Assembly (NCBI RefSeq): GCF_003627055.1
Contig: NZ_CP032624.1
Span: 3,286,001-3,350,000 of the forward strand
Direction of reading: 5' to 3'
Source of the DNA: Gryllotalpicola protaetiae
GTDB lineage: Bacteria; Actinomycetota; Actinomycetes; Actinomycetales; Microbacteriaceae
DNA: 64,000 nt
In this document: piece by piece, positions 35,967-51,949 of the stretch
How the letters are laid out: each line of letters starts with the position of its first letter
Position numbering within the stretch: the first letter of the stretch is position 1
Translations under genes and position numbers: made by a program
Notes under the pieces: generated by a model
The model's database searches: none
What the model was told of the DNA's origin: nothing
Seen by the model: the letters and a program-made list of their open reading frames with translations, nothing else

Positions 35967-40524
<4,558 letters not shown>

Positions 40525-40624: not shown

Positions 40625-41596
40625 TTACGAGCCGGAGCGGCTTGTGGCCTCGGCTTCCCCCTCGATGGGGTCTTTCGAGTCTACGTCATCGCTCTGGCCG
40701 CTCTCGTCGCCCTGGGCGTCGTCGCCGGGCGTCCACTCGAAGCCGCGGCGGTACACGCTCGGCTCCGCCCCGGGGTGCCGGTGGTGCTGCACGGCGATGA
40801 TCACGATGCCCAGCACGACCGCGGCGAACGCCGCCCAGACGTTGCTCGCGATGCCGGCGAAGCCGAACTCGCTCGGGTCGATGCGGATCGACTCGAGCCA
40901 GCTGCGGCCGAGGCCGTACCAGATCAGGTACATGCCGAAGAAGATCCCCCAGCGCGGTTTGAACTTCCGCTCGATGGCGAGCAGCACGATGATGCCGATG
41001 ACGTTCCAGATGATCTCGTACAGGAACAGCGGGTGGAACACGGTGCCGTCGGGCAGGCCGGCCGGGTACGCCTTGTTGGAGCTCGGGATCTCGAGGCCCC
41101 ACGGCAGCTTCGTCGGCAGTCCGAACAGCTCGTTGTTGACGTAGTTGCCGAGGCGGCCGATCGACTGGGCGAGCAGCAGGCCGGGGACCAGCGCGTCGGC
41201 GAACGACCAGAAGCGCAGCTTGTGCTTGGGCAGCGCGCACGCAAGCCACAGGCCGACGGCGCCGCCGATCAGCGAGCCGAAGATCGCGTTGCCGCCGTCC
41301 CAGATCGCGAAGACGTTCCAGAAGTTGTCGCCCGCGGCGAAGTAGTCGTGCGGGTGCGTGACGACGTGGTACGCACGGGCGCCGATGATGCCGAGCGGCA
41401 CCGTCCACAGCACGACGTCGAGCACGATGCCCGGCTCACCGCCGCGCTTCGTGAGGCGGGCGTGCGTCCACCAGGCCGCCGCGATGATGCCGGCCAGGAT
41501 CAGCAGCGCATAGATGTGGATCGTGATCGGACCGATCGGGAACGACTGCCATGAGGCGGGCGGGCTCGGGATGCTCGAGACAAGCGCTTCCTGCAA
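40625..41596 (-). CDS. lgt: prolipoprotein diacylglyceryl transferase
   Basis: 323 residues, seven membrane helices. Transfers diacylglycerol to the lipobox cysteine of prelipoproteins. Signature GRLGNYVNNELFG with the essential Arg/Asn, plus PHDYF and HPLFLYEIIWN. The C-terminal 45 residues are an acidic Asp/Glu/Ser tail in the cytoplasm. TTG start at 41596 with AAGGAAGG about 10 bases upstream. It follows trpA on the same strand after 94 bases that include a TAGGG/CCCTA dyad (41654–41668). Confidence 0.96.
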   Translation of the reverse strand: MQEALVSSIPSPPASWQSFPIGPITIHIYALLILAGIIAAAWWTHARLTKRGGEPGIVLDVVLWTVPLGIIGARAYHVVTHPHDYFAAGDNFWNVFAIWDGGNAIFGSLIGGAVGLWLACALPKHKLRFWSFADALVPGLLLAQSIGRLGNYVNNELFGLPTKLPWGLEIPSSNKAYPAGLPDGTVFHPLFLYEIIWNVIGIIVLLAIERKFKPRWGIFFGMYLIWYGLGRSWLESIRIDPSEFGFAGIASNVWAAFAAVVLGIVIIAVQHHRHPGAEPSVYRRGFEWTPGDDAQGDESGQSDDVDSKDPIEGEAEATSRSGS

Positions 41597-41690: not shown

Positions 41691-42484
41691 TCAGCGGCGG
41701 GTGCCGGCTGCGAGGGACTCGGCGGCGGCGCGAACTCCCGCCACTCCCCCGTCGGCGAGCGACTTGACGAGCATCGAGCCGACGATCGCGCCGTCGGCGT
41801 ACGACAGCACCTCGCCGACCTGCTCGCCCGTCGAGATGCCGATGCCGACGCAGACCGAGTCGGCGCCGGCATCGCGCAGGCGGCCGACGAGCACCCGTGC
41901 GGCGTCATCGACGGATGCCCGGGCGCTCGTCACCCCCATGGTCGAGACGGCGTACACGAAGCCCCGCGAGGCCGCCGTGGCCTGGCGCAAACGCTCGTCG
42001 GTCGAGGTCGGCGCGGCGAGGAACACGCGGTCGAGCCCGGTGCGCTCGCTCGTGGCGATCCAGTCGGCTGCGGAGTCCGGCGTGATGTCGGGCGTGATGA
42101 GCCCCGCGCCCCCCGCCTCGGCGAGCTGGTCGGCGAAGCGGTCGAGCCCGAACTGCACGACCGGGTTCCAGTAGGTCATGACGAGGGCGGGCGCGTCGAC
42201 CTGCGCACGGATCTGCTTCACGGCTTCGAAGACGTGCGTGACCCGGAATCCGTTCGCCAGCGCCTGCTGCGTCGCCGCCTGGATGACCGTGCCGTCCATG
42301 ACGGGGTCCGAGTAGGGCAGGCCGAGCTCGAGCACGTCGACGCCGGCCTCGACCAGGGCGACGGCCGCATCGATCGAGGTGCTGAGGTCGGGGAATCCGA
42401 TCGGCAGGTAGCCGACGAGCGCACCCGTGCGGGTCTCGCGGGCGGCTGCGACGGCTGCGGCCACCGGCGAGGTGGTGGTGTCGG

Positions 42485-42488
<4 letters not shown>
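41691..42488 (-). CDS. trpA: tryptophan synthase alpha subunit
   Basis: 265 residues. Cleaves indole-3-glycerol phosphate to indole and glyceraldehyde-3-phosphate. Catalytic Glu in [17 protein letters not shown] and Asp in the same loop; GIGISTGEQ near the phosphate site. The ATG overlaps the trpB stop (ATGA), so indole-channelling partners are coupled in translation. Confidence 0.98.
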
Positions 42489-43699
<1,211 letters not shown>

Positions 43700-43708
43700 C
43701 AGTGGTTC

Positions 43709-44488
43709 CTAAACAGACAAGAACTTCTCGAGCGTGCGGATCGGGTCGCCGTCGGTGACGAGCGCCTCGCCGACCAGCACGACGTCGGCGCCCGCATCGC
43801 GGTAGCGCGCGACATCTTTGCGCTTGAGAACGGCGGATTCCGCGACCCGGACGACGCCGGAGGGGATGCGGTCGGCGACGCGCCCGAACAGCTCCTTGTC
43901 GAGCTCGAGAGTGGTGAGGTCGCGCGCGTTGACGCCGATGAGGCCGGCGCCGACGTCGAGCGCGCGGTCGATCTCCTCCGCAGAGTGCGTCTCGACGAGC
44001 GCGGTCATGCCGAGCTCGCGCACGAGCTCGTGCAGGCTCGCGAGCTTCTTCTGGTCGAGCGCCGCGACGATGAGCAGCACGAGGTCGGCGCCCGCGGCGC
44101 GCGCCTCGAACACCTGATACTCGGTGGCGACGAAGTCCTTCCGAAGCACCGGGATGGTGACGGCGGAGCGCACCGCCTCGAGGTCGGCGAGCGAGCCCTT
44201 GAACTTGCGCTCCTCGGTGAGCACCGAGATCGCGCTCGCGCCACCGGTCTGGTACGTCACGGCGAGCTGCGCGGGGTCGGGGATCTCGGAGAGGTGGCCG
44301 CGCGACGGGCTCGCGCGCTTGACCTCGGCGATGATCTTGATCTGCTCTGCCGGCTGCAGCAGCTCGAGCGCGTCGAGGGCAGGCTTCTGCTTCAGCGCGG
44401 CCTTCTCGACGGCGGCCTTCGGGCGCTTCGCTTTCCGGGCGTTCGCGTCGGCGACCGACCCGGCGGTCAGCTCGGCGAGATGGGACAC
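43709..44488 (-). CDS. trpC: indole-3-glycerol phosphate synthase
   Basis: 259 residues, a monofunctional TIM barrel (no fused TrpF). Catalytic Lys in IAEVKRASPSRG, VLRKDF, the Glu in VAESAV, and INARDL (here GVNARDL). The GTG start at 44488 shares its last base with the stop of the small upstream membrane gene. trpD and trpF are not in this window. Confidence 0.97.
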   Translation of the reverse strand: MSHLAELTAGSVADANARKAKRPKAAVEKAALKQKPALDALELLQPAEQIKIIAEVKRASPSRGHLSEIPDPAQLAVTYQTGGASAISVLTEERKFKGSLADLEAVRSAVTIPVLRKDFVATEYQVFEARAAGADLVLLIVAALDQKKLASLHELVRELGMTALVETHSAEEIDRALDVGAGLIGVNARDLTTLELDKELFGRVADRIPSGVVRVAESAVLKRKDVARYRDAGADVVLVGEALVTDGDPIRTLEKFLSV

Positions 44489-44736
44489 TAGTGGCCCTTG
44501 GGCTGGTATTTCTCCCCGCCCACGCCGTAGCCGGCCCGCTTCAGGATCCAGCCGACGATCAGGCCGACGACCACGAGGCCGCCGCCGACGATGGCGACCA
44601 ACCACGGCTGGTCGAACCAGAAGAACAGGGTGCCGAGGGTGAACCCGAGCAGCATGATGATCACCGCCGTCCACGCAGCCGGCGAGTGGCCTTCGCCGAG
44701 TTCCTCGTGTTCGGGGGCGTTCGTGGTGCCGCTCAT
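44488..44736 (-). CDS. small actinobacterial membrane protein linked to trp genes (DUF6704-like)
   Basis: 82 residues. Motif GHSPAAWTAV before two helices (about 22–41 and 46–67), then a Lys/Gly tail. Short proteins with an H-G-x-S-x-AAW motif commonly sit just before trpC in actinobacteria; function unknown. ATG at 44736 overlaps the stop of the nickel/cobalt transporter gene (ATGA). Confidence 0.85.
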   Translation of the reverse strand: MSGTTNAPEHEELGEGHSPAAWTAVIIMLLGFTLGTLFFWFDQPWLVAIVGGGLVVVGLIVGWILKRAGYGVGGEKYQPKGH

Positions 44737-45827
44737 GTCTCTCCTGGTCTCGAACTACTGGCTGAGAGTCTACCGGGCCGCCACCGCGCGAACCGCCCTA
44801 CGGCGAGCGCGATCAGCCATGCCGCCGCGAACACGCCCGCGAGCGCATATCCGGCATAGTCGAGATCGATGCGGGCGACCGCCGCGAGGGGCGCCGCGGT
44901 GATCACGTGGCCGTCCACGAGCACTCCGAGCAGCTCGATGCTTCCGATCAGCAGCGCGGTCGCGACGGAGATCGACGTGACCGTGAGGTTGTACACGATC
45001 TTGCGCACCGGCTTGGCGGCGGTCCAGCCGTACGCCCCCATCATCAGCATCCCGTCCGCCGTGTCCATGAGGCACATGCCTGCGGCGAAGAGAGTCGGGA
45101 GCACGAGGATCGCGTATGACGGAACCGCGAAGGTCGCCGCGCCTCCGGCGAGGACGAGGAGCCCGACCTCCGTCGCGGTGTCGAAGCCGAGACCGAAGAG
45201 CACGCCGACCGGATAGATCTGCCACGGCTTCGCCGCCCGCCGGGTGAGACCGCCGAGGATTCGGTTGAGGAGTCCCCGCGACGCGAGCCGCCTGTCGAAC
45301 TCGGCGTCGTCGAACGTCCCCGCGCGCAGCTTGCGGAGGGCGCGGACGATGCCGATGAGTACCGCCAGGTTGAGGGCTCCCAGCAGCCAGAGGAATCCGC
45401 CGGAGACGGACGGCCCGATCACATCGGCCATGGCGTGCAGCCTCGAACCGCCGTCCTCCAGGGGGCCGACGATCGACTTCACCCCGACCGCGAGGAGCAG
45501 CGCCAGCGCGAACACGACGGTCGAGTGGCCGAGGGAGAACCAGAACCCCACCGAGAGCGGTCTCTGGCCGTCTGCGAGCAGCTTGCGGGTCGTGTTGTCG
45601 ATGGCGGCGATGTGATCGACGTCGAAGGCATGCCTGAGCCCGAAGCTGTAGGCCAGCACGCCGACTCCGACGGTGAACGCCTGATGAGCGTCGCCGAGCC
45701 GGTAGTGCTCCGGTGCGACGGCGATGATGAGCAAGCCGAAGCCGATCACATGCAGAAGGACGACGAGACCGGCCATGCGGCCGACTCTGCGCCGTTCGGC
45801 ACCGGTGAGGGAGCGCCAGAACTTCAT
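44733..45827 (-). CDS. NiCoT-family nickel/cobalt transporter
   Basis: 364 residues, eight predicted membrane helices. Signature motifs of HoxN/NixA: RHAFDVDHIAAIDN in helix II, GFWFSLGHSTVVF, and LGFDTATEVGLL. Imports Ni2+ or Co2+ with high affinity; the choice between metals is not decided by the motifs. ATG at 45827, 19 bases after the DUF4331 gene. Its stop overlaps the next gene in the trp cluster. No nickel enzyme or NikR-type regulator is seen in the window. Confidence 0.93.
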   Translation of the reverse strand: MKFWRSLTGAERRRVGRMAGLVVLLHVIGFGLLIIAVAPEHYRLGDAHQAFTVGVGVLAYSFGLRHAFDVDHIAAIDNTTRKLLADGQRPLSVGFWFSLGHSTVVFALALLLAVGVKSIVGPLEDGGSRLHAMADVIGPSVSGGFLWLLGALNLAVLIGIVRALRKLRAGTFDDAEFDRRLASRGLLNRILGGLTRRAAKPWQIYPVGVLFGLGFDTATEVGLLVLAGGAATFAVPSYAILVLPTLFAAGMCLMDTADGMLMMGAYGWTAAKPVRKIVYNLTVTSISVATALLIGSIELLGVLVDGHVITAAPLAAVARIDLDYAGYALAGVFAAAWLIALAVGRFARWRPGRLSASSSRPGET

Positions 45828-45846
45828 CGCGAGACCAGGCCGGCGC

Positions 45847-46875
45847 CTAGAGGCCGGGCACGGGGACGACGTAGGGGAACTGGGCCGCACGCAGATGCTC
45901 GGAGACCGAGGCCTTGAGCCCCGAGGCGACGGCGGTGCCGGTGACGAGGCTGAGCATCGCCTCAGGGGCGTTGTCCGCCATGGACCGGCCGTTGCGTCCG
46001 GCGAAGCCGTATCCGGCGGGCGTGCCGACGACGTAGCGCATGACGTCGGGCAGCAGGATGTGCGCGACGGCGCGGCCGTAGGCGTCAGGGTCGCCGGCGG
46101 TCCCGGACGCGGCGACGGTCTGGGAGATCAGGCCGGCCAGCTCCTCTCCGTCCTGCTCGAAATCCACCGAGGGATGACGGCTGTTGGCCGGATGGGTGAA
46201 CTGGATGTCGTCCGGCCAGAAGATCGGCCACAGCATCGGGTGCCCGAAGCGATTGATCTGGTGCCAGCCGTCGCCCTCGTCGATCTTCGTCGAGCACCAC
46301 ACGGCGATCTCGGTGCCCGGCTGAAGTGGAGCCGAGATGTTCGGCACTTCGAGCACGATGGTGTCGACCGTGGTGTTCGCGAAGCTGTTGGTCGCGGCGT
46401 CGGGATGCCACGTCGACAGGTCGAGCGCGGTCCCGCTGCGTACGGCGCCGTTGACCAGCCCGAGCAGCGAGAGGTCGATGTAGAACGAGTCCGCGCTGCG
46501 TCCGGCCCACACTCTGAGACCGTTCGCCTCAGCGAGCTGCCCTGTGCGCCCTGTGACCGCCACAGCTCCTGTGGCCTCGTCGCTGGCGGCGTCGTCGTCG
46601 GTGAGCACGCTCAGCTCGAAGTCCTGCGCACCGTCTTCCGCCGCCTGGCCGAATACGAAGCGGTACGCGAGCGACTCGTGGGGCGCGTCCGCGAGATGGA
46701 TCTTGAACTCGTAGCGCGTCTCCGGAAGGAACGACGGCTCCGCCCGCTCCTGAGTGACATTGGAGTTGACGTTCATGATGAAGACCGTGCTGTCGCGGCC
46801 GGGGAACACGTACATGTCGTCGATGTAGAGCTGCCCGATCGTGCCGGCGCGGGCTGCGGCGAGGTGGTGGGACAT
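45847..46875 (-). CDS. DUF4331 family protein
   Basis: 342 residues. The N-terminus HHLAAARAGTIGQLYIDDMYVF and VFIMNVNSN matches DUF4331, a beta-propeller-like family of unknown function. Other stretches: YEFKIHLAD, VWAGRSADSFYIDLSLLG, VLEVP, and GFAGRNGRSMADNAPEAML near the end. No signal peptide, although many relatives are exported. GGAG lies 6 bases before the ATG. Operonic with the transporter downstream, divergent from the LuxR-type regulator, suggesting metal- or stress-related control, but this is inference. Confidence 0.85.
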   Translation of the reverse strand: MSHHLAAARAGTIGQLYIDDMYVFPGRDSTVFIMNVNSNVTQERAEPSFLPETRYEFKIHLADAPHESLAYRFVFGQAAEDGAQDFELSVLTDDDAASDEATGAVAVTGRTGQLAEANGLRVWAGRSADSFYIDLSLLGLVNGAVRSGTALDLSTWHPDAATNSFANTTVDTIVLEVPNISAPLQPGTEIAVWCSTKIDEGDGWHQINRFGHPMLWPIFWPDDIQFTHPANSRHPSVDFEQDGEELAGLISQTVAASGTAGDPDAYGRAVAHILLPDVMRYVVGTPAGYGFAGRNGRSMADNAPEAMLSLVTGTAVASGLKASVSEHLRAAQFPYVVPVPGL

Positions 46876-46940
46876 TTCGGCTCCTTCTTCCGTGGAGGTG
46901 GATGTCCTCACGGTCGCGCAGCCCGAGCGGCCCGAGCCAG

Positions 46941-46983
46941 CGTCAAATGACGTCTCTGGGCGCATTACGTGATTCGACTCACG
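46941..46983. promoter_or_regulatory. two palindromes in the DUF4331 / LAL-regulator intergenic region
   Basis: CGTCA-AA-TGACG (46941–46952) and CGTGA-N6-TCACG (46968–46983). Both lie in the 165 bases between the divergent starts. The spacing and dyad form fit operator sites for a dimeric regulator, possibly the LuxR-type protein encoded next door. Confidence 0.45.
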
Positions 46984-47040
46984 GCGGTAGCCTCCTGCCA
47001 GAACACTGCGCGCTCGCACGCGGCGGTGGAGGTGTTGCGC

Positions 47041-49788
47041 ATGGTCCTCGTCGGCAGGGACGCCGAGCTGGCGTTCGTATTCGACCTGCTCAGGCGATCG
47101 TCTGCGGCCGGAGAGGCACTGGTCCTCGCCGGTGACCCCGGCGTGGGGAAGACGGCGCTTCTGCAGGAGGTCGCGCGCGAAGCGCGCACCAGCGGGGCTC
47201 GTGTCGTCCGCGGAGTCGGCTCTGAGGTCTCCGATATCAGCCTGTCCAGTCTGACGCCGGCCGTCATGCCGCTGATGGCGTACGCGGGCGAGCTGGCGGA
47301 CGCGCACCGTGAAGCGATCTCCATCGCGGCCGGTTTGACGGACGGCCGGCTCGCCCGCCCGGCGGTCGTCGGCCAAGCTCTGCTCATGCTGCTGATGGCG
47401 GCCGCCACGGACTCGCAGGTTCTCTTCCTCGTCGATGATGCGCAGTGGCTGGACCCGTACAGTGGCGAAGTCCTGCGATTCCTTGCGCAGCGTGTGGGCG
47501 GTGGCCGGGTGGGTATCGTCGCGGCAGCGAGAACGCCCGCCGTGGAGAGCGTCAACCTGCCCGGCATCCCCCGTCTTGACATCGCGGCCCTGAACACGGA
47601 GGCGGCGGAGTCGCTCATCCGCTCCCGTTTCCCCAACCTCGCAGACCGTGTCGTGCGCCGCGTCGTGATCGAGGCGCAGGGGAACCCACTCGCCCTCCTC
47701 GAGCTGCCGCCGGCGCTGAGCGGCCCCCAGCGCGCGGCAGTCGAGGCTCTGCCGAGCATCCTCCCCATGAGCGAACGGCTGCAGGCGGTGTTCGCGTCAC
47801 GGATCGCACAGCTCCCTGAGCAGACGAGGGAGCTCCTGCTGCTCGCGGCTCTCGACGGCACCTCTGACCTGATGGTCCTGGCCGCCGCCTCAACGAGTGC
47901 CGATGTGCTCAAAGATCTCGGCCCCGCCGAACGCGACCGGCTCGTCCAGGTCGACAACGAACGCCACCGCATCGATTTCAGACACCCGCTCACGCGATCC
48001 GCGGTCATAGAGCTCTCGACGGCGGCTCAGCGCCGGGCGGCCCATGCCGCACTGGCGCGCGCTTTGGCAGAACAGCCTCTCCGACGGGCACCGCACCTCG
48101 CCGCTTCGGTCGACAAGCCTGACGAGGAAGTGGCCGGGCAGCTCGAGAGCTGTGCGCAGCATCTCGCGCACCGCGGTGAGGCGACCTCGGCGGTGACGGC
48201 GCTGACCAGGGCGGCCGACCTCAGTCCTCACGCCGCAGATCGCAGCAGACGCCTTGCTCGGGCGGCGTTCATCGGCAGTGACATGGCCTGGCAGTTCAAC
48301 GCCATGGCCGAATTGCTGGATCAGACCAGGGACACCCAGCTCGATCCGGGTTCCGCGCTTCTGCTCGCTGCGGCTGCTGCCGTCATCATGGCGAACGGCG
48401 ACTACGACTTCGAAGCCACCCACCGCCTGCTCGTCGCCGCGATCGAGGCGCACGCCGGCGACTACGACACGTCGAGTGAGGGGTTGCGGGCCGCGGTCGG
48501 CTCGCTGACCATGCTGTGCATCTTCGCCGGCAAGCCGAATCTGTGGCCGGCGTGCGTCGCTGCACTCGGCCGTATGTCGCCAGAGCCGCCCCTCGGCCTG
48601 CGCCTTCAGGCCATGACGCAGTTCGACCCCGCGCGCACGGCACATGCGGCACTCGACGAGCTGGATCGGGCCATCGTCGCGCTGAACGACCAGGTCGACC
48701 CGGAAGAGCTGCTGCGCATCCCCACGGCGGCCGTGTACGTCGACCGTCTGGCGGGCTGCCGTGATGCTCTGCGCCGTCAGATCGCCGACACCGGCGGCAG
48801 CGGCGCGACCGCGCGCATCGCCGTGGCCCGCATGAACCTCTGGGTCGACGCGTTCGGAAGCGGGCGCTGGGATGAGGCGCAGCAACTCGCGCAAGACGGG
48901 TTGGACGAGTGCATCGCGGCCGGCGCCGGCCTGTACGCGCAGATCAGCGGCTTCCAGCTGGCCATGCTCGCCGCGGCGCGCGGAGACCACTCCGAGACGG
49001 CGCGCCTGACCGACGAGCTGATCGCGTGGGGCTCGGCGCGCGGCGCGCGACTCGGCCAGGTCTTCGCCTGGCATGCTCGGACCGTGGATGCGCTGGGCAG
49101 AGGCGACGTCGAAGAGGCGTATCAGTACGCGGCCGCGATCAGCGCGCCCGGTACTTTCCCTCCTTATGAAGCGACTGCGCTCTGGGTGTGCTTCGACCTC
49201 GTGGTCGCCGCAGCTCTCTCCGGGCGCCTCGATGCGGCGAAGGCGCACGTGGCTGCGATCGAGGCCGCGAGGCTCGGCGAGCTCTCACCCCGCCTGATGC
49301 TGTTGGCATGCGGCGCAGCCGGAGTCGCGGCATCCGACGAAGGCGCCGCGCGCGCAGCGTTCGAGCGCGCTCTTGCGGTCGGTGCGGCCGACCGCTGGCC
49401 GTTCGAGAAGGCCCGGGTCCAGCTGGCCTACGGTCGGCGTCTCGCGCGCGCCGGGGCGCGCCTCGAGGCACGTGCCGTCTTGCAAGCTGCTCACGCGACC
49501 TTCGATAAGCTCGGCGCGCGGCCGTGGGTGGCGCTTGCGCTTCGCGAGCTGCGCGTGGTGCGATCCGGCCCCTCGGCGCCAGGGCCCGACGCGGTCGCCG
49601 GTCTCACCGCACAAGAGCTCCAGATCGCCCAGCTCGCCGCGCAGGGGTACAGCAACAAGGAGATCGGGGCGCGGCTGCACCTCTCCCACCGCACGGTGAG
49701 TACGCACCTCTATCGGCTGTTCCCGAAGCTCGGTGTGACCGCGCGCGCCGGCCTGCGCGACGCCCTGACGAAGGAGCGCAAGGACTAG
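47041..49788 (+). CDS. LuxR-family regulator of the LAL (MalT-like) type
   Basis: 915 residues. N-terminal AAA/NTPase with Walker A GDPGVGKT at 31–38 and a Walker B-like LFLVDDAQWLD, a long helical repeat middle (TPR-like) of about 500 residues, and a C-terminal LuxR HTH (about 855–915: GLTAQELQIAQLAAQGYSNK, then IGARLHLSHRTVSTHLYRLF). LAL proteins are ATP-dependent switches that activate neighbouring genes on binding an inducer. ATG at 47041 is preferred to an upstream GTG (46969): GGAGG lies 8 bases before it and LVGRDAEL begins directly. Likely controls the divergent DUF4331–NiCoT operon. Confidence 0.92.
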   Translation: MVLVGRDAELAFVFDLLRRSSAAGEALVLAGDPGVGKTALLQEVAREARTSGARVVRGVGSEVSDISLSSLTPAVMPLMAYAGELADAHREAISIAAGLTDGRLARPAVVGQALLMLLMAAATDSQVLFLVDDAQWLDPYSGEVLRFLAQRVGGGRVGIVAAARTPAVESVNLPGIPRLDIAALNTEAAESLIRSRFPNLADRVVRRVVIEAQGNPLALLELPPALSGPQRAAVEALPSILPMSERLQAVFASRIAQLPEQTRELLLLAALDGTSDLMVLAAASTSADVLKDLGPAERDRLVQVDNERHRIDFRHPLTRSAVIELSTAAQRRAAHAALARALAEQPLRRAPHLAASVDKPDEEVAGQLESCAQHLAHRGEATSAVTALTRAADLSPHAADRSRRLARAAFIGSDMAWQFNAMAELLDQTRDTQLDPGSALLLAAAAAVIMANGDYDFEATHRLLVAAIEAHAGDYDTSSEGLRAAVGSLTMLCIFAGKPNLWPACVAALGRMSPEPPLGLRLQAMTQFDPARTAHAALDELDRAIVALNDQVDPEELLRIPTAAVYVDRLAGCRDALRRQIADTGGSGATARIAVARMNLWVDAFGSGRWDEAQQLAQDGLDECIAAGAGLYAQISGFQLAMLAAARGDHSETARLTDELIAWGSARGARLGQVFAWHARTVDALGRGDVEEAYQYAAAISAPGTFPPYEATALWVCFDLVVAAALSGRLDAAKAHVAAIEAARLGELSPRLMLLACGAAGVAASDEGAARAAFERALAVGAADRWPFEKARVQLAYGRRLARAGARLEARAVLQAAHATFDKLGARPWVALALRELRVVRSGPSAPGPDAVAGLTAQELQIAQLAAQGYSNKEIGARLHLSHRTVSTHLYRLFPKLGVTARAGLRDALTKERKD

Positions 49789-49799
49789 GGGGCGGCGTC

Positions 49800-50426
49800 T
49801 CAGTCCGCAGTCGGGTCGTCGCCGCGGGTCAGCTCGTCCCAGTCGTCGACGGCGCTGTCACCAGGTCGCTCTTCCGGCCTCTTCGAGGTCGCGGACGCCT
49901 TGCCGTCGGCTTCTTCGAAACGGACCGCGTTGTAGCGGCGCGACCCGCCCGGCCAGCGGCCGCCGGTGACGAGGGCCGCGAGAGAGCCGAGGGCGATGAG
50001 GATGCCGCCGATGAGCGCCAGCGTCGGCCAGGCACTCGCGGCGACGGTGGCGATGAGCGCGTGCACGGACGAGTCGCCGGTGATGCCCGTGGCCGTCGAG
50101 ACCGCGTTGCGCACCCCGAGCGAGGTCTTCGGGTCTCCCGCCGAGGCGAAGATCACCGTCGCGCCGAGGATCACGCCGATGACGCCCACGATGATGCGGG
50201 CCACCCGGCCCGCGATGGCGAATGCGAGGGCGAGCGCAAGGGCGGCCAGCGACAGCGCGGTGAGGGCGGGCGAAGCATCAGATCCCGTGACGACGACGGG
50301 TGCAGGGTGCCCTGCGGCATGCGTGAGCGTGACGGTGAACCAGGTCTGCGTCGCACCGGCGAGGCCGAGGCCCGCGCCGATCACGACCACGAGGATCGTC
50401 AGGAGCTTGAGACGGCCGCCGGTCAC
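49800..50426 (-). CDS. Trp-biosynthesis-associated membrane protein
   Basis: 208 residues, four hydrophobic helices (about 6–25, 50–70, 76–95, 135–158) then a charged tail. Recognised by its fixed place right after trpE in actinobacteria and by the QTWFTV motif after helix 1; function unknown. GTG at 50426 overlaps the trpE stop. It is separated from its usual partner before trpC by the inserted regulator/transporter segment. Confidence 0.85.
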   Translation of the reverse strand: MTGGRLKLLTILVVVIGAGLGLAGATQTWFTVTLTHAAGHPAPVVVTGSDASPALTALSLAALALALAFAIAGRVARIIVGVIGVILGATVIFASAGDPKTSLGVRNAVSTATGITGDSSVHALIATVAASAWPTLALIGGILIALGSLAALVTGGRWPGGSRRYNAVRFEEADGKASATSKRPEERPGDSAVDDWDELTRGDDPTAD

Positions 50427-51949
50427 GCCGTGACCCTTCGCATGGCGTTGGCGACCGCGACGGCGCGCAGCGGTGCTGCGGCTTTGTTGCGGCACTCCTC
50501 GTACTCGCTCGCGGGATCCGAGTCGGCGACGAGGCCGGCGCCGGCCTGCACATAGGCCATGCCGCCGATGAGCGTCGCGGTGCGGATCGCGATCGCGAGG
50601 TCGGCGTCGCCGGCGAAGCCGAAGTAGCCGACCACTCCCCCGTAGACGCCGCGCTGCGCCGGCTCGAGCTCGTCGATGATCTCGAGTGCGCGCGGCTTCG
50701 GAGCGCCCGAGAGCGTGCCTGCCGGGAAGGTCGCGCGGAAGACGTCGACGGCCGAGGCATCCGGCCGCACATCGCCCTCGACGCTCGAGACGAGGTGCAT
50801 GATGTGGCTGAACCGCTCGACCCGCATGAACTCGGTGACCTCGACCGAGCCGGCGCGGCAGACCTTGGCGAGGTCGTTGCGGGCGAGATCGACGAGCATC
50901 AGGTGCTCCGCGCGCTCCTTCGGGTCGGCGATGAGGCTCGCCTCGAGCTCGGCGTCGGCCTCGGGCGCCGCGCCGCGCGGGCGGCTGCCGGCGATCGGGT
51001 GCGAGTATGCCCGGCCGTCCTCGACCTTGACGAGCGCCTCGGGACTCGAGCCGACGACCGTGTACGGCTCGCCGGCCGGGGTCGCGAGCTGCAGCAGATA
51101 CATGTACGGGCTCGGGTTGAGGCTGCGCAGCACCCGGTAGACGTCGACCGGGTCGGCGGTGACCGGCTGCTGGAACCGCTGCGAGATGACGACCTGGAAC
51201 ACGTCGCCCGCGGTGATGAAGTCCTTCGAGCGCTCGACAGCGGCGAGGTAGTCGTCACGCGGCGTGCGGTTCTCGGCGTTCGGCTCGGCCGCCAGGTCGA
51301 CGACCGCGAGCTGCGCGTCGAGCGGCTGGGCGAGCTGCGACTGCAGGCGGTCGAGACGTGCCTGCGCGTCAGACCACAGCCCGTCGGCATCCGCCTCGCC
51401 GTCGTTCAACGCATTCGCGATCAGCTGCACCACACCCGTGCGGTGGTCGATCACGACCAGCTCGGCGACGAAGCTGAAGGCGAGGCCCGGCACGTCGAAA
51501 TCGGCGGGCGGCTGGTGAGGCAGGCGCTCGAGCTGACGGACGGCCTCCCACCCGATGAAGCCGACCAGGCCGCCCGTGAGAGGTGGCAGACCGGGGATGC
51601 GCGGTGTCTGCCAGCGCGCGTAGAGCGCGGCGAGCACGTCGAGCGGCGCGGCACTGGAATCGACGGATGCCCCGAGCGCGCGCTGCGCGGACAGACCGTT
51701 GCTCTGCCACTGCGCCGATTCGCCCGTCTGCGTGAGCACCCCGAACGCGTTGGCGCCGACGAACGAGTAGCGCGACCAGATGCCTCCCTGCTCTGCGGAT
51801 TCCAGCAGGAAGGTGCCCGGCCGGCCGGTCGCGAGCTTGCGGTAGATGCCGACCGGGGTCTCGCCGTCGGCGAAGAGCTCGCGCACGACGGGGACGACGC
51901 GATGGCCGTCAAGCAGCGCGTTGAACGCCGAGCGCGAGGTGCCCGTCAT
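50423..51949 (-). CDS. trpE: anthranilate synthase component I
   Basis: 508 residues. Makes anthranilate from chorismate with glutamine amidotransferase TrpG (not in the window). N-terminal feedback-inhibition element LLESAEQGG, then chorismate-binding domain motifs [30 protein letters not shown] and [14 protein letters not shown] overlaps the hisI stop. No leader peptide or attenuator can exist upstream because of this overlap. Confidence 0.98.

Follow-up and report, generated by a model that had tools for sequence, protein, structure and literature searches.

Organization of the locus

The window, i.e. the whole stretch of 64,000 nucleotides of Gryllotalpicola protaetiae DNA analysed here (contig NZ_CP032624.1, positions 3,286,001 to 3,350,000 of the forward strand), contains trp genes between which three further genes are found, encoding a LAL-type regulator, a DUF4331 protein and a NiCoT-family transporter, referred to below as NicT (Table 1). 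The preliminary description of this DNA had placed these three genes between the trpE-side and the trpC-side membrane genes, and its coordinates, strands and families agree with the present ones. The same holds for its report that the transporter stop overlaps the next trp-cluster gene: the TGA of NicT and the ATG of DUF6704 share the letters ATGA at 44733-44736. The LAL gene lies 11 nt from the stop of the Trp_oprn_chp gene, tail to tail, and head to head with the DUF4331 gene, which is separated by 19 nt from NicT; both of the latter are codirectional with DUF6704-trpCBA. The translated reading frames across the locus are all intact. Misassembly at the cassette site is unlikely, because the locus is internal to a 3.65 Mb contig of an assembly that is 99.7% complete. 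The Trp_oprn_chp protein scored 39 bits against TIGR02234, under the cut-off of 71.15. No riboswitch was matched in Rfam at gathering score between positions 40000 and 55000. The convergent LAL and Trp_oprn_chp genes have only the 11 nt at 49789-49799 between them, with no terminator-like site, and his-trpE transcripts may continue into the LAL gene as antisense RNA.

Table 1. Features of the trp locus and of the genes found within it (positions in the window)
Feature	Position	Strand	Basis or remark
trpE	50423-51949	minus	PF00425
Trp_oprn_chp membrane protein, final gene of the upstream his-trpE unit	49800-50426	minus	PF09534, 128.3 bits
LAL-type regulator, 915 aa	47041-49788	plus	PF13191 AAA_16 ATPase and C-terminal PF00196 GerE (LuxR helix-turn-helix)
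-10-like CGGTAGCCT of the LAL gene	46985-46993	plus	47 nt upstream of LAL
Short dyad CGTGAttcgacTCACG in divergent region	46968
Short dyad CGTCAaaTGACG in divergent region	46941
Divergent control region LAL/DUF4331, 165 bp	46876-47040
DUF4331 protein, 342 aa	45847-46875	minus	PF14224, 56.8 bits (cut-off 27)
NicT, NiCoT-family nickel/cobalt transporter, 364 aa	44733-45827	minus	NCBIfam NF052500 'Nickel transporter NicT', 487.9 bits (cut-off 450)
CGGTAGACT, retained -10-like element of the DUF6704-trpC-trpB-trpA unit	44767-44775	minus
DUF6704/HGxxPAAW small membrane protein, heads the downstream trp unit	44488-44736	minus	PF20447
trpC	43709-44488	minus	PF00218; Pfam/NCBIfam profile scan
trpB	42485-43699	minus	Named by place and translation
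trpA	41691-42488	minus	Named by place and translation

Products of the three genes

LAL proteins (large ATP-binding LuxR proteins) are about 900 residues long, combine an N-terminal ATPase carrying a Walker A motif with a C-terminal LuxR helix-turn-helix, and are usually transcriptional activators. The protein encoded in the window has 915 residues, GDPGVGKT at position 31 and both the AAA_16 and the GerE domain; the strict Walker B pattern gave no match, and VLFLVDD was read by eye. The DNA upstream of DUF4331 in G287, a genome of the same family (locus L012), and in Intrasporangium oryzae (L013) showed neither of the two dyad types of the divergent region, and on these two loci an operator shared by DUF4331 loci was dropped as an explanation.

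NicT scored 277.8 bits against PF03824 NicO (cut-off 27.7) and 332.9 against TIGR00802, just below 333.05; the NicO domain and the NF052500 equivalog match assign it to the NiCoT family. Like the NiCoT transporters (TC 2.A.52; HoxN/NixA/NicT/NhlF), it has the NicO domain and signature motifs of the kind described in a passage of PMC7689651, three of the four, those of TM3, TM5 and TM6, being exact (FSLGHSTVV at 97, LGFDTATE at 213 and GMCLMDTAD at 250). Unlike them, it lacks the exact TM2 motif (R/K)HAxDADH(I/L), with RHAFDVDHI at 65 differing by a single A to V substitution, and it ends in a C-terminal tail of ancestral trp-leader origin. No solved relative of NicT was found by sequence. Regarding the substrate, a passage of the same paper states that sequence identity does not predict Ni/Co specificity (PMC7689651). 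Neither urease alpha (PF00449) nor [NiFe] hydrogenase (PF00374) was matched in six genomes, own genome included, nor was Ni-SOD (PF09055), a weak absence in that the controls were silent too; the idea that a nickel enzyme accounts for the transporter was rejected on these searches. The own genome has one B12-binding match, and the ORF that contains it shows MetH-type methionine-synthase domains in Pfam. With a MetH-type B12 enzyme but no urease or [NiFe] hydrogenase match in the own genome, cobalt is a reasonable guess for the substrate.

The PF14224 match of the DUF4331 protein, which passes the gathering threshold, spans only residues 116-317, and no N-terminal hydrophobic segment is apparent by eye. 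A structure model with a pLDDT of 89.7 and a pTM of 0.90 had no PDB or viral structural match at E <= 0.001. In a second structural look the top row had a Z of 8.3 (Sas6, CBM74 stretch), and most of the rows after it were beta-sandwiches of the immunoglobulin type with Z 5.7-6.8; nothing functional was drawn from these matches to a predicted fold. Searches by sequence returned no solved relative (one chance-level row, E 0.28), and the literature search found no paper on DUF4331 or PF14224.

Of 35 DUF4331 loci inspected, four have the gene directly upstream of a NiCoT gene, one of these on an alphaproteobacterial plasmid, and with just this share a general DUF4331-NicT pair was rejected. (The loci are the window, L008, L012, L013-L038, L100-L102 and L131-L133, several of them on short contigs; of 17 plasmid records, 3 were included.) As in the window, DUF4331 of G287 lies directly upstream of a NiCoT gene, at a distance of 14 nt and with two LAL genes nearby, and so does that of Rhizobium bangladeshense plasmid p4 (L132), with a gap of about 160 nt; in contrast to the window, both DUF4331 proteins are only about 40% identical to its own and neither pair is in a trp operon. 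Other neighbours include alpha/beta hydrolases, an annotated SDR and a plasmid-borne tellurite/C4-dicarboxylate-type transporter. An alpha/beta hydrolase gene adjoins DUF4331 in Ktedonobacteria, in Thermoplasmata MAGs and on the Rhizobium plasmid (L014-L017, L132), and lies two genes away in Intrasporangium (L013) and about 11 kb off in G287. On a Streptomyces plasmid (L131, 8001-10318) DUF4331 is followed by the annotated tellurite resistance/C4-dicarboxylate transporter, not by NicT. The recurrence directly upstream of NiCoT genes points to a role of DUF4331 with metal uptake, and its other neighbourhoods argue that metal uptake is not its sole role. That DUF4331 is a partner of NiCoT transporters, e.g. 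a cytosolic Ni/Co-handling factor beside the permease, and that LAL-DUF4331-NicT forms a mobile metal-uptake module, is a tentative and rather doubtful proposal; such a module was not found in the literature searched.

Comparison with relatives

The trp locus was compared in 64 relatives from the same family, the window not counted. Besides the three genus-mates, these were the 26 genomes that followed as best trpC matches and 35 more, mostly one per genus, all chosen among the best trpC matches listed, which leaves distant trpC versions under-represented. In 61 of the 64 the two membrane genes were both detected (the Trp_oprn_chp gene was not detected in three), and 60 of those 61 have no more than 172 nt between the two genes. 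The sole exception is the genus-mate G003, with about 943 nt between the membrane genes. This genome (L011) has an independent insert of that length at the same Trp_oprn_chp/DUF6704 place as the window cassette, with an ORF of 198 aa (L011 5838-6434, minus strand) that weakly matches an HNH endonuclease (PF01844, E 0.013, below cut-off); in this genome, too, a -10-like TAGGCT is retained before DUF6704.

The cassette is absent from the trp locus of all three genus-mates (G001-G003), and none of the other genomes examined showed its layout within the trp operon. DUF4331 is present in 3 of 299 genomes of the family and in 4 of 297 of the order, both counts including the own genome; G287 and G261, which have it as the two further members of the family, show the compact trp layout (L095, L098). 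NicT is present in 30 of the 299 family genomes (own counted; some matches weak or partial), and no match to it was found in any of the three genus-mates. For LAL, G001 and G002 were searched and gave marginal best matches only (E 1.4e-12 and 1.3e-9). At about 67-69%, the GC content of DUF4331-NicT is slightly below that of the flanks, which is about 69-72%. The junctions, compared over 140 and 160 nt, have no common direct or inverted repeat of at least 8 bp, and no mobile-element scar was seen.

Separate trees were computed for DUF4331 (30 rows) and for NicT (12 rows, nine of them other genomes of the family). The window was grouped with Intrasporangium oryzae in both, with support of 100/99 for DUF4331 and 100/98 for NicT, and stood apart from the family homologues included. 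In I. oryzae NRRL B-24470 (L013, NZ_AWSA01000011.1) the two genes have the same order and direction as in the window, with 68% identity for DUF4331 and 64.6% for NicT, and there is likewise a LAL gene on the opposite strand, 42-43% identical to the window LAL. This gene (L013 844-3567), the best match of this genome to the window LAL, sits about 5.4 kb upstream of the pair. Unlike in the window, a BTAD/NB-ARC regulator, an alpha/beta hydrolase and a ferritin-like gene lie in between, the DUF4331-NicT gap is about 200-265 nt as against 19 nt, and no trp gene was matched within its 19 kb. In G287 the LAL at the DUF4331-NicT pair ranks as the second-best match to the window LAL.

Judged by trees and gene order, the DUF4331-NicT pairs of the window and of Intrasporangium are of common origin, and since both trees join Intrasporangium, whose best LAL match is near its pair, the three genes most likely share one history. 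DUF4331 proteins that are 58-60% identical to that of the window occur in Chloroflexota, Thermoplasmatota MAGs and Bradyrhizobium (L014-L017, L022), which suggests wide horizontal transfer of DUF4331. The preliminary description had suspected an inserted cassette and had proposed to compare the trpE-trpC content across relatives; with that content compact in 60 of 61 relatives, the genus-mates free of the cassette, DUF4331 patchy and the trees joining Intrasporangium, the suspicion is borne out. The LAL-DUF4331-NicT block is an insertion into the trp operon, not an ancestral layout. The three-gene cassette is a recent gain.

Junction and retained promoter-like element

In the genus-mate locus L009, the DNA between the membrane genes reads ...CCCGATAGACT...AGGAGAGACATGAGC; in the window, ...CCCGGTAGACT...AGGAGAGACATGAGC stands immediately after the NicT coding sequence. 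It follows from this comparison that the cassette landed upstream of TAGACT, and that the final 14 or so codons of NicT, with which the surviving element is now read, come from ancestral intergenic DNA; the profile match of NicT ends at residue 348 of 364, short of this leader-derived tail. The window still has an undamaged start region of DUF6704, AGGAGA ribosome site included. Because L009 has the same AGGAGAGACATGAGCGGC start with no transporter in front, the ATGA overlap looks like an accidental by-product of the landing.

The DNA upstream of DUF6704-trpC was surveyed in 65 loci, 63 of them anchored (window in both counts), with expectations taken from shuffles. Exact TAGACT occurs in 47 of the 63 anchored loci (0.85 expected) and the looser CGNTANNNT in 55 (4.8 expected), the strict form of the latter pattern being missing in eight. 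Columns flanking the hexamer are nearly random, save a CG before it, and its distance to the start varies from 24 to 69 nt in relatives. Among the loci with one mismatch in their best 75-nt match, 10 of 11 keep T1, A2 and T6. No conserved -35 was seen upstream of DUF6704 in relatives; in the window the -35 region of the retained element is replaced by NicT sequence, with which the element may be weaker.

Of the five TAGACT occurrences in the window, four have a called start on the same strand no more than 100 nt downstream (0.2 expected), and in 464 kb of the own genome, window included, this is true of 8 of 15 (0.63 expected; starts from a simple gene caller). The latter enrichment is 12.6-fold; 179 permutations of the letters had a median of 2.2-fold, and five of them exceeded 12.6-fold, each on 2-6 upstream hits. 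The fifth TAGACT of the window, at 40678-40683 (minus strand) in the 3' end of lgt, precedes the called start of gltB by 195 nt and might serve gltB as an internal promoter. To meet one CGNTAGACT in 64 kb is not surprising (0.51 expected; 41 of 100 shuffles contained at least one), and the promoter argument is carried by where CGNTAGACT stands and by its conservation, not by its mere presence. In Corynebacterium glutamicum, according to a passage of PMC3890552, TAnnnT is found at about 97% of start sites and -35 regions are weak. TAGACT has this form of an actinobacterial primary-sigma -10, is conserved and lies upstream of a gene start; it is read here as the surviving -10 of a DUF6704-trpCBA promoter, promoter-like by its sequence.

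Alternative explanations

An ancestral five-gene layout that was lost in the relatives has next to no probability, in view of the 60 compact loci among 61, the presence of DUF4331 in just 3 of 299 family genomes, and the placement of the pair with Intrasporangium and not with the family homologues included. The conserved TAGACT could also be a cis element of another kind, e.g. a regulator site, and conservation of the CGn ahead of the hexamer would agree with that; such a role is nevertheless unlikely, as T1, A2 and T6 are the positions kept in one-mismatch loci (10 of 11) and unrelated genes of the own genome also have the hexamer upstream more often than expected.

As to the transcription of trpCBA, the preliminary description had proposed that it now depends on the DUF4331 promoter, linking metal import to tryptophan synthesis. 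A scan for terminator-like sites gave five over both strands (1.5 expected), of which the sole one on the minus strand lies inside NicT at 45548-45560 and none between NicT and DUF6704. With no such site there, added read-through from DUF4331-NicT into trpCBA is possible; a TTGACA/TATAAT-type site (9/12) inside NicT at 45067-45040 (0.5 expected) likewise makes other transcription starts possible. Transcription of trpCBA solely from the DUF4331 promoter, with translation coupled via ATGA and tryptophan synthesis tied to metal import, would agree with the missing terminator-like site, with DUF4331, NicT and DUF6704-trpCBA being codirectional and 19 nt apart or overlapping, and with the opposed gene, which cuts off the upstream his-trpE unit. 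It is very improbable all the same: the ancestral -10-like element and the AGGAGA site are retained, the genus-mate that lacks the transporter has the same ATGAGC start, and the terminator-like site within NicT is on the same strand. The proposed dependence is thus not supported, the coupling finds no support where TAGACT is conserved upstream of DUF6704-trpC in 47 of 63 loci, and a separate promoter before trpC, named in the preliminary description as speaking against the coupling, is present at sequence level only, as the element at 44767-44775. Somewhat less than even credence is given to an additive coupling, in which trpCBA would have its own promoter and, when LAL is active, read-through would let metal or stress signals raise trpCBA slightly. 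The common orientation, the lack of a terminator-like site between NicT and DUF6704 and the intact retained element are all consistent with it; against it stands the lack of any sign of selection, no other examined genome having shown the arrangement. It is probable that the tryptophan genes were not brought under control by metal.

Interpretation and significance

The explanation preferred here, a horizontally gained cassette of about 5 kb inserted beside a retained trp promoter-like element, is considered likely as a whole. The cassette, with LAL in one direction and DUF4331 and NicT in the other, would have entered between the Trp_oprn_chp stop and the -10-like element of DUF6704-trpC-trpB-trpA; NicT, which reaches the junction without a stop codon, would then run in frame through the old leader to the TGA inside the DUF6704 start ATGAGC. 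The polarity of the insertion, the cassette-free trp loci of the genus-mates, the common origin with the Intrasporangium pair, and the retained promoter-like element and ribosome site are borne out by the comparison of sequences. From family and position, the LAL protein would control the divergent DUF4331-NicT unit and presumably switch it on, NicT would import Ni2+ and/or Co2+, and DUF4331 may assist NicT. Transcription of trpCBA would still start at its own promoter and at most be supplemented by read-through, and the former his-trpE transcript would now continue into the LAL gene in antisense.

The finding is a modest one: a small transferred module was truly inserted in a core operon, and the proposed coupling to trp is weakened by the retained promoter-like element. 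A foreign gene block can thus enter a core biosynthetic operon with no obvious damage, here at a point that shortly precedes an internal promoter-like element strongly conserved in relatives. The conservation of this element suggests that DUF6704-trpCBA is a separate transcription unit across the family. If the cassette is a mobile metal-uptake module, as tentatively proposed above, its landing beside the retained promoter would represent a natural operon split with no loss of downstream expression. The main lead left is DUF4331, for which the recurrence next to NiCoT genes in actinobacteria and on an alphaproteobacterial plasmid provides a first testable lead.
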